Of a DNA stretch of 64,000 bases, positions 54,615 to 57,615 are shown in pieces. Below the pieces are notes generated by a model. It made no database searches. It was not told where the DNA came from and worked only from the letters and a program-made list of their open reading frames with translations. The DNA is from Cryptococcus deneoformans JEC21. Taxonomy: Eukaryota; Basidiomycota; Tremellomycetes; Tremellales; Cryptococcaceae. Positions within the stretch are counted from its first letter, which is position 1; the number at the start of each line of letters is the position of its first letter. Location of the stretch: contig NC_006684.1 of NCBI RefSeq assembly GCF_000091045.1, positions 1,175,001 to 1,239,000 on the forward strand, given 5' to 3'. A program made the translations under genes and the position numbers.

Positions 54615-57600
54615 TCAAGGTCTCCCGAAGGGTTTGTAAGGGAATAGCCTGATTTGCGGGAAGCATCTTGAGAAATGGGTATATACGCTGTCTACCCACA
54701 TCGGGTCGGGGCCATCCTCGCCTCCCAGCCAGATCTCAAGTCTGGTCATCTTTCGACGAGAGATAGCGACGCCACAAATGATCGATTTGGCCCTTGCTCC
54801 AGATGGGGATGGAACGGCATCAGAGAGGGACCCGCCTATAAGGAGCAGACAGATATCGAGAAAGACGTTGTCCATCTGACTCGTTTGTTTGTTAGAGTGA
54901 TAAAGCAGGGTAAGTTGGAAGACTTACCAAGGCAGCATCTCCCGCCATCATGAACTTCCCTCCTTTTCCACACATTTTGTCTTCCCACATTGGCTTGATA
55001 TCATCAGCGAACAAGTGTAGATTTGTATCGTCATTCATCAAGTCGGCACCCAACCCTGCTCCTCCTTGCATTGACATACCCCTCGGCTCAATCTCTCTTC
55101 CCTTTGTTTCCGCAATGGCCCGCCGCAACGCCTTCCACCCTCCAAAGAACTCCTCAAGGTCAGTTGCGTTGAAGACGGTGACAAGGCCAGAGTTGTATTC
55201 GTGGGCGCTCTGGAGGTGCAAACGATGTTTATGTTGTCCTTTCTCGGATGTGTCGGAGTAATACATGGTCCAGGAACGGTCAAGGGGGAATGACTGGGGT
55301 AGGGGGCCTATCCTTGCTTTCTCGGGAGATGTTGGAAGAGAAAGTGGCCTTGAGAAATTGAGGCCGGTATTCATCGAAGAAGATTGAGACGCAAAGTTGG
55401 AGTGAGGCCTACCCGAACTGAAAGTGATCTCGACCATGTGCTGGTAACCAGGCAAAGGTCGCGATTTTTGCTTTTCAGGAGAAGACTGGGCCGAATACGA
55501 CTGCCGAGGATGGCCTGTGCCCCAAGAGTTGTTGCGCCGCAGAGAAGTCAAAGTTAATCGATCTTGTTGACAATCGTTATACGAAGGAGGAACTTCAATT
55601 GGCACGGGAGTAGACATCGTTCTTTCCAAAACTACAGGTCTAGGTGTATTATCATCCTTTGATTCCACCCTGACTGGTTGATCTCGTCTCTCTACTAAGA
55701 AAATTGGCTTTGCGGGGGAAGGATGATTTCCCTCAGGTTGATTGAAATCTTGAGAAGTGGGTGAAGTTATAACAGCGTCAGAGTTACGACGAGAGTTTGA
55801 AAGCTCGGAGGGAATGCGATAGATAGTAGTCGGCTGCTCCCTTATCACCGGCGAAGTCTCAGAGCTTTCCCTATCGGGGCTGGTAGGCTCAACCTTGGGC
55901 GAACCACGGCTGTCAACTGTTGGATCCTCTGCTTCATTTATATGCGTGACAGACAGCGATTCTCGAGCTTCGGGCATAGTCTGAAGACCTTCTTGCCTAG
56001 ACTCCTCTAGCGACTCCTCTTCGCATTCCTCTATCACTGCCAGACCTTCTTGAGAGGCTGGAACCTCATCCTCTTGCTTTTGATCAGTATCGTTCACGCT
56101 CACCACGTTAGCCCAGTCATCGAAAGGAGCAAACGTCCTGATTTTACCGGCGGTAGATCCGAACTTTCGCTTTGAAATCTCATCAGGCGAAGCGGGAACG
56201 CTCAAAGGAGTTGTGGGTGTACCGGTTGAATACTCGTATGAAAGACTGGCAGCAAACGCGACTAGGTCGTCCTCAGCAGGGTTTTCAAAGTTGGTGATGG
56301 TTACGACGAGTTTATTTTCGACCTGCTTCTCAGATACGAGCTCTTCTGGATTGACTTGTCAACACAGAGGCTTTGTGATGGGTAGCAACTTACTCTCACA
56401 CCTCTTGGTCTCATCCCCGTTGGTTGGTGGAGGAGTTGGAAGCCTTTCTTCATGAGCGCTTAGGGGAGTTGTAAGTTTTTCGTACGTTGTGACTGATTCG
56501 GCGCTGGGGCTGAATAGGGCACCTTCCACAGCCTCCGAAAGCGTTTCTGCCATTCCTTTGACGGCAGGCCACCCAACATCTTCCTTCACCGCCATCTGGA
56601 TCACGCCTTCTTCTTCATCCTGTTCTATTGGCTCTTCCTGGTACTTCGCAGAAGCAGCTTGCTTTTCCTTCTTCTTCTCTTTCTCCCTTTCCTTCTTCTT
56701 AGCATTCTTCCTTTTCTTTCTTTCGCTTATCACACCGTTTTCAGACCTCAGGTCTCCTTCAGATTCAAGGTGAAATGAAGAGGCGGGGGTTTTGTTTGAT
56801 GTTGTATCCCCTTCGGCACCTCTCGGTGTGAGCATTTGTCCGGATCCATAGAAGGCATGCAGACGGTCCGAAGGGCTTTGTTGTCCCAGGTCAACTCCCA
56901 GCTCAGACATTCCTTCTGAGAAAGACTGTAACGGCCCATGACGGACATGATGATGATGGTTCTGGCCGTATGCATCTAGTATAACGCCTCCTGGTCTCAA
57001 TACAGCCGGGTCATGTTGGTTCTTCATTGTCGTTTGCCCATTTGCTTTCACCTTTTCTTCATGCAGCTTGACCCGAGCCTTATATTCCTCCATCAGCATA
57101 TTCTCTACCTCTTCCGAGCTCATATTCTTATTGAATAAGATAGAGGGGTCGAATGGGACAGGGCTGGCTTCGAACAGGTTGACGACATGATCAATTTCCT
57201 TGGGTGACATTGAGGAGCTGACGAAGTTGCGCAACTGAAGCGGGAGTTGAGCGGTCTCCGACAATGAACTGTCTTGGTGAGGTCGGCTGTGAGTTAAAGA
57301 AAGAGCTGGATGGGCGAAAGAAGCCACTGAAGGTGGAGTACCAGGCTCGGTGGGGGTGAGCTCCAATGATGGCTGGGAGTGAGAACGCATAGCATACTTA
57401 TCGTATTCGGCTCGAGGATCTTGGTATCGGGCAGGAGTCAACTCAAAAGGCTGAACTGTCTGAGCAGGCTCGGCTGGAGGGGTAATGAATGGACTTGGAA
57501 GGATACTCGGAGTTGGAATGGGGTCGTTCTCGAGGACAGGAGATTCTGATGCTGGCTGACGAGACTTCCTTTGCGTCTTTTTATTCTTTGCGGAGCCCCT

Positions 57601-57615
57601 TCTTTTGAGGGGCAT
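54615..57615 (-). CDS. Large protein with C-terminal eIF4E-like domain
   Basis: Three exons (57615-56394, 56345-54928, 54875-54615) encode 966 residues. The first ~759 residues are low complexity: Ser/Pro-rich, with a Lys/Glu coiled segment near 320-345 and acidic patches. Residues ~760-966 follow the eIF4E fold: FPLDRSWTMYYSD, LEEFFGGWKALRRAI, the IKPMWED cap-pocket motif (Trp861, Glu862), FLDICLLLIGGSL, and a final strand with MTRLEIWLGG. The position equal to human Trp56 is not aromatic here (EKGQHKHRL), and Trp73 is Phe, so cap and partner binding may differ. The start at 57615 is the first ATG. The closest known class may be eIF4E2/eIF4E3-like regulators. Confidence 0.85.

Follow-up and report, generated by a model that had tools for sequence, protein, structure and literature searches.

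Fungal translation initiation factors of the eIF4E type that carry long terminal extensions have been described before, and we compare here with these and other known systems a gene on the minus strand of Cryptococcus deneoformans JEC21 (contig NC_006684.1) whose product joins an eIF4E domain to a very long N-terminal arm. The gene lies within a stretch of 64,000 nucleotides, which was analysed as a whole and is called the window hereafter. Hernandez et al. 2024 surveyed 1462 eIF4E cognates, drawn from 538 species of fungi, among which they described F-Class VI and F-Subclass IA, both with extensions (PMC11791286). According to that survey, F-Class VI has basidiomycete members, carries Trp, Tyr or Phe at the position of human Trp56, an insertion of 18-25 residues, an N-terminal extension of 100-900 and a C-terminal extension of 160-850 residues, and has no Ser209; F-Subclass IA, known from C. 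gattii, has N- and C-terminal extensions of 126-307 and 202-437 residues, and class II is recognized by Ile, Val or Leu at position 162 (PMC11791286). Human 4EHP stacks the cap between a Tyr-Trp pair (Tyr78/Trp124) and binds it 30-100 times more weakly than class I proteins, for which loop geometry is also blamed (PMC4306533). Trp73 contacts eIF4G and the 4E-binding proteins (4E-BPs), and non-aromatic substitutions disrupt this contact (PMC1260017). In Leishmania, the N-terminally extended eIF4E4 serves as a scaffold of initiation, and its disordered arm binds PABP1 (PMC6379680). The portions consulted of two further sources (PMC6749009 and PMC12691695) treat eIF4E in general only.

Extended basidiomycete eIF4Es are thus known as a kind, whereas the family of the window protein has, as far as we found, only been catalogued. 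The main text of the 2024 survey does not contain the terms 'lysine', 'disordered', 'Kwoniella' or 'Tremell', and its one mention of W73 is a general one; as the survey drew on RefSeq and PF01652, its set probably includes this gene. No published work on the gene was found in the open-licence PMC literature, searched without the C. neoformans H99 locus tag. An earlier note on this DNA, written from the letters of the window, knew of no described role for such a protein in basidiomycetes; this stands for the protein itself within that literature and not for the kind, since basidiomycete eIF4Es with arms of 100-900 residues are on record (PMC11791286).

Cap pocket and docking surface of the eIF4E domain

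The sole Pfam match in the protein is IF4E (PF01652; residues 761-931, 71.4 bits with the cut-off at 28.7 bits, E = 9.1e-20), and in a search of the organism's own genome (19.05 Mb, 14 contigs) the exon 2 part of the domain scores 44.7 bits by itself. The predicted structure, for which the model of a C. neoformans relative (P0001) was used, shows the eIF4E fold, and the alignment places an intact IKPMWED motif in the window domain. The identification of the domain by the earlier note is borne out, and we regard the window protein as almost certainly a divergent eIF4E paralogue. A search with the domain returned 5 proteins out of 1228 candidates and a search with a Kwoniella relative 25 out of 712; all 17 organism-named matches to the latter come from Cryptococcus, Kwoniella, Dioszegia, Naematelia or a Tremellales sp., the taxonomy of Kwoniella, Dioszegia and Naematelia having been checked as order Tremellales, to which Cryptococcus belongs as well. 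Several of these relatives are labelled 'hypothetical protein' in the database and several translation initiation factor. Residue tallies given below as 20/20 or n = 20 cover 20 of the 28 family members. Alignment A2 (16 rows) left out P0011, P0012 and P0014 (near copies) and P0020-P0027 (cut proteins), and alignment A3 (19 rows) left out P0002, P0003, P0011, P0012, P0021, P0024, P0025 and P0026. The features of the domain on which the argument turns are the following.

54928..55299, minus strand: eIF4E-like domain, exon 2 part, residues 757-880 (Pfam, alignment, predicted structure)
55195..55197, minus strand: Tyr791, at the position of human Trp56, cap stacking (MAFFT, tally, hhalign)
54985..54987, minus strand: Trp861, at the position of human Trp102, cap stacking, followed by Glu862 (alignment, tally)
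54729..54731, minus strand: Trp929, at the position of human Trp166, N7-methyl contact (alignment, tally)
55102..55158, minus strand: helix alpha1, residues 804-822, with Phe808 and the invariant Trp811, Arg815 and Arg816 (alignment, predicted structure, tally)
55027..55101, minus strand: Gly-rich insert (GGxGLG), about residues 823-847, from helix alpha1 to the next strand (alignment, tally)

Tyr791 falls at the Trp56 position, as Trp56 to Trp73 in the human protein and Tyr791 to Phe808 in the window protein both span 17 residues in an ungapped alignment, and the register is the same in MAFFT with the paralogues and in hhalign of the family profile against the 579-residue type of protein described below. 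The earlier note had held this aromatic residue to be missing, an oversight probably due to the 12 extra residues that precede Tyr791; the position is Tyr in 27 of all 28 family members and Phe in the remaining one (P0021). Human Trp56, Trp102, Glu103, Arg112, Arg157, Lys162 and Trp166 correspond to Tyr791, Trp861, Glu862, Lys871, Arg921, Arg925 and Trp929, respectively, and at each of these seven cap-contact positions, the ones that were checked, the residue is the same in 20/20 family domains and either identical to the human one or a conservative substitution. The pocket therefore looks intact rather than broken, which argues against the altered cap pocket and the non-cap RNA binding suggested previously.

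The change lies instead on the partner-docking side. The canonical Trp at position 73 is replaced by Phe808 in the window protein, and the family has Phe in 14, Leu in 5 and Ala in 1 of its members (n = 20). This substitution had been read correctly in the earlier note, but was counted as a change of the pocket, whereas Trp73 sits on the surface that meets eIF4G and the 4E-BPs (PMC1260017). Three residues past this position stands Trp811, which is invariant, as are Arg815 and Arg816 (20/20). After helix alpha1, between the Trp73 and Trp102 positions, the sequence is 24 residues longer than in the human protein and carries conserved GGxGLG and NxHxF motifs; this insert had been overlooked. The C-terminal loop holding the Ser209 region is absent, with no sequence at Ser209, and beyond the Trp166 position the window protein continues for 37 residues only, as compared to 36-40 residues in 19 of the 20 full-length members and 125 residues, with a Gly-rich tail, in P0018 from Dioszegia. 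Judged by sequence, the docking side for eIF4G and 4E-BPs is rebuilt and the cap pocket conserved.

Paralogues, phylogeny and described eIF4E classes

Four eIF4E paralogues were found in the genome, namely the window gene and three others, C3, C6 and C11, whose gene models were rebuilt here and from which the window family is set apart by the docking-side and C-terminal features just described.

C3:1010300-1013800 (L007): locus of the C3 paralogue
C6:384700-388000 (L006): locus of the C6 paralogue
C11:821000-824500 (L008): locus of the C11 paralogue

C3 (299 amino acids) keeps Trp56 and Trp73 and has a class I protein as its best PDB match. C11 (392 amino acids) has Tyr56, Leu73 and Ile162, and its best PDB match is human 4EHP, with 88 bits versus 58 for the next eIF4E; its residues ~220-392 form a C-terminal tail in which His, Gly, Arg and Glu abound and GHGHGHGH repeats occur. 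C6 (579 amino acids) has Tyr56, Ala73 and Arg162. Trp73 is consequently gone from three of the four paralogues (Phe in the window protein, Ala in C6, Leu in C11) and kept in C3 only. A search for the C6 type placed 318 of 617 candidates above threshold, 120 of which were listed; the named proteins among these listed matches are, going by their names, presumably basidiomycete. Residue tallies for this type cover 17 of the 120 listed and the own-genome copy, and at position 73 these 18 rows have Ala in 8, Cys in 9 and Trp in 1.

A tree of 39 rows, built on 177 columns, shows the window family as a clade of its own (100/100) that is present in 100% of 200 bootstrap trees, on a stem of 3.18 changes per site, which is too long to place a sister group. 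Class I (four rows) is supported at 95/96, 4EHP with C11 at 99/91, where class II amounts to two rows with C11 on a long branch, and the C6 type at 55/34. The tree left out P0003, P0011, P0012, P0014, P0063 and P0020-P0027, and included 16 of the 120 listed C6-type proteins plus the own copy. The best PDB profile match of the family is a Leishmania eIF4E (5wb5, 55.6 bits; next 42.8, class I proteins at about 42), which does not settle its kinship.

Among the described classes, F-Class VI shares four features with the window protein: Tyr791 at position 56, the insert of 24 additional residues, an arm of ~756 residues and the absence of Ser209. It differs in its C-terminal extension of 160-850 residues, as opposed to 37 residues after Trp929, although the survey gives ranges for the class and does not state that every member has such a tail (PMC11791286); the comparison was made with the published class description, the tree holding no F-Class VI sequence. 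The extension ranges of F-Subclass IA are not matched by the window protein, with its longer arm and no C-terminal tail. C6, which is putatively the protein tested elsewhere under the name F-Subclass IA, resembles the window protein as a long-armed Cryptococcus eIF4E with Tyr at the Trp56 position, a basic residue at 162 and Trp73 lost, but neither Trp811 and Arg816 nor the 24-residue insert is present in the C6 type (18 rows), which has a C-terminal tail of its own and forms a separate tree group. The window protein departs from class I by Tyr791 in place of Trp56, and its family lies outside the class I clade. With class II it has in common the Tyr-Trp cap sandwich (Tyr or Phe at 56), IKPMWED and the fold, whereas Arg925 at position 162 (20/20), a separate clade (two class II rows) and the presence of the 4EHP-like C11 in the same genome set it apart. 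Trypanosomatid EIF4E4 likewise has a disordered N-terminal arm on an eIF4E core, the scaffold role being that of EIF4E4 (PMC6379680), but simple pattern searches of the window arm found no PAM2-like match and no canonical YxxxxL-phi 4E-binding motif.

Gene model and N-terminal arm

The gene encodes 966 amino acids in one unbroken frame from ATG to TGA, joined from three minus-strand exons (57615-56394, 56345-54928 and 54875-54615) across two GT-AG introns of 48 and 52 bases, so that the coordinates, strand, introns and frame given in the earlier note all hold.

56394..57615, minus strand: exon 1, coding for residues 1-407 plus the first base of codon 408, which make up the N-terminal arm half (splice sites, frame)
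56346..56393, minus strand: intron 1, GTAAGT...CAG, 48 bases (the joined sequence aligns across the junction with annotated relatives)
54928..56345, minus strand: exon 2, residues 408 (part)-880, a single open frame through the remaining arm and ~120 residues from the start of the eIF4E domain
54876..54927, minus strand: intron 2, GTAAGT...CAG, 52 bases
54615..54875, minus strand: exon 3, residues 881-966 with the stop codon, the C-terminal portion of the eIF4E domain
56662..56721, minus strand: Lys-rich island, residues 299-318, 14/20 Lys or Arg (best of 200 shuffles of the window arm, 9)
57037..57117, minus strand: predicted arm helix, residues 167-193 (P0001 model, block pLDDT 56, 73 and 75, then 43 for residues 191-200; pLDDT, predicted local distance difference test)

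The open frame of exon 2 (54892-56358) alone spans ~350 residues of the arm and ~120 from the start of the domain, which makes the fusion of arm and domain independent of splicing, and the annotated relatives have the same order, as the earlier note's view of a single fused protein would have it. The start MPLK is common to the window protein and three of four Cryptococcus relatives, the remaining one having MALK. All eight of P0020-P0027 diverge from the family sequence near the position of the window's intron 2, as would be expected of unspliced reading.

The arm is about 720 residues longer than the human N-terminus. Its composition (residues 1-752: Ser 11.8%, Glu 10.5%, Pro 10.0%, Lys 5.7%) and the structure model, in which it is mostly disordered, agree with the previous description of a long disordered arm rich in Ser, Pro, Lys and Glu. 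A Lys-rich island, defined as at least 10 Lys or Arg within 20 residues, was found in 26 of the 28 family arms, the exceptions P0021 and P0025 coming from contigs of 5196 and 2152 bases, and its count exceeds the best of 200 same-arm shuffles in 25 of these 26. On the contrary, such an island occurs in 1 of 119 C6-type arms (P0051 reaches 10), with a median of 5 and a value of 5 for the own-genome C6 arm; this comparison includes 119 of the 120 listed proteins, one having been dropped for lack of the motif used to locate the domain. In relatives outside Cryptococcus, a helix-helix-strand-strand element without a Pfam name is predicted near the N-terminus (e.g. residues 33-85 of P0007), with weak cross-clade support. 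It is seemingly common to P0005-P0010, P0013, P0015-P0020, P0022, P0023 and P0027, and was not detected in the window protein.

Possible roles of the window protein

The reading that we favour, with slightly less than even confidence in its mechanism, is that the gene is a fourth, fast-diverging Tremellales eIF4E paralogue, whose predicted product would be a cap-binding scaffold of messenger ribonucleoprotein (mRNP) without canonical eIF4G docking. The 7-methylguanosine (m7G) cap would be bound via Tyr791, Trp861, Glu862 and Trp929 together with Lys871, Arg921 and Arg925, probably with an affinity below that of class I, and no ordinary eIF4F would be formed because the canonical docking surface is changed. 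The arm could direct its Lys island towards RNA or acidic partners and its Ser/Thr-Pro sites towards kinases, and together with the new helix it may assemble an mRNP in which capped mRNA is sequestered or stored. The protein may thus act as a translational repressor or mRNP scaffold, as proposed in the earlier note, and the missing docking Trp speaks in favour of this. More tentatively, the Tremellales branch as a whole may have kept the cap pocket and replaced the otherwise widespread docking Trp by a new dorsal surface made of Trp811, Arg815/Arg816 and the Gly-rich insert, yielding a cap-dependent, eIF4G-independent mRNP scaffold. Since three of the four paralogues lack Trp73, different genes would then serve cap recognition and the assembly of eIF4F. 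If true, Cryptococcus and related fungi possess cap-binding proteins that no longer make the usual contact with eIF4G, which would offer a natural test of eIF4E function beyond initiation and for which Tyr791, Phe808, Trp811, Arg815/816 and the Lys island are testable residues.

Several observations weigh against this favoured scaffold. The model gives a pLDDT below 50 for residues 786-791, which end at Tyr791, and of 62-65 for the blocks of the insert, so that the geometry of the pocket is not established. The positions of human Leu131 and Glu132 are largely kept (Leu886 in 15/20, Asp or Glu887 in 20/20) and Phe808 is still aromatic in Cryptococcus; eIF4G docking may therefore persist, or Trp811 might take over from Trp73. 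Conservation of the arm is also poor beyond close species (29.4% identity to C. depauperatus, 24.5% to Kwoniella), the island of P0004 (11/20) only equals the best of 200 shuffles, and P0004, P0008, P0013, P0016 and P0019 show no Ser/Thr-Pro enrichment.

The same docking data lend some weight to an alternative initiation factor, cap-bound and recruiting eIF4G or a special partner via Phe808 or Trp811 for a subset of mRNAs or for a stress or sexual state. This is an appreciable, though doubtful, possibility: the cap set is complete, Phe predominates at the Trp73 position (14/20) with Leu886 and Asp/Glu887 mostly kept, the extended Leishmania eIF4E4 sets a precedent for an initiation scaffold acting through PABP1 (PMC6379680), and the best PDB match of the family profile, 5wb5, comes from Leishmania, albeit as an IF4E-1 chain and not the extended form. 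On the other side, simple patterns find neither a YxxxxL-phi motif nor a PAM2-like sequence in the window arm, and position 73 varies to Leu and Ala within the family. It is improbable that the window protein instead does the work of 4EHP in these yeasts, competing weakly for the cap and repressing mRNAs via a GIGYF-like partner, because C11 is already 4EHP-like by its profile scores, its place in the tree and its Ile at 162, and the window family, with Arg there in every tallied domain, does not group with the two class II rows of the tree. We give a similarly low likelihood to an eIF4E domain that no longer binds the cap and has become a module for contacts with proteins or RNA. The long stem branch, the insert with its new basic helix, the missing loop of the Ser209 region and the low model confidence near Tyr791 would all be compatible with such a loss, yet the seven cap-contact positions have been kept in 20/20 domains despite the long divergence, a pattern that purifying selection for cap binding would account for. 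A wrongly fused gene model, be it of two transcripts or of a decaying paralogue, is very improbable. The evidence for splicing is sequence-based and most of the arm is poorly conserved, but arm and domain are joined within one exon, named relatives (598-1055 amino acids) have the arm followed by the domain, no frame is broken, and the closest protein, from C. neoformans, has 93.8% identity over the domain as compared to 80.7% over the arm, which indicates that the domain is under constraint.

The neighbouring genes lie on the same strand as the eIF4E gene, with an M13 peptidase gene upstream (58784-60019, minus strand; PF05649, 1.7e-52) and a Rad17-like gene downstream (52696-52941, minus strand; PF03215, 3.3e-07). 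Other genes recognized by Pfam in the window are ordinary ones: a SOG2 RAM-pathway protein (22026-24860, minus strand), a phosphoglucose isomerase exon (17896-18975, minus strand) and an ERCC4-domain protein (35189-36715, plus strand).
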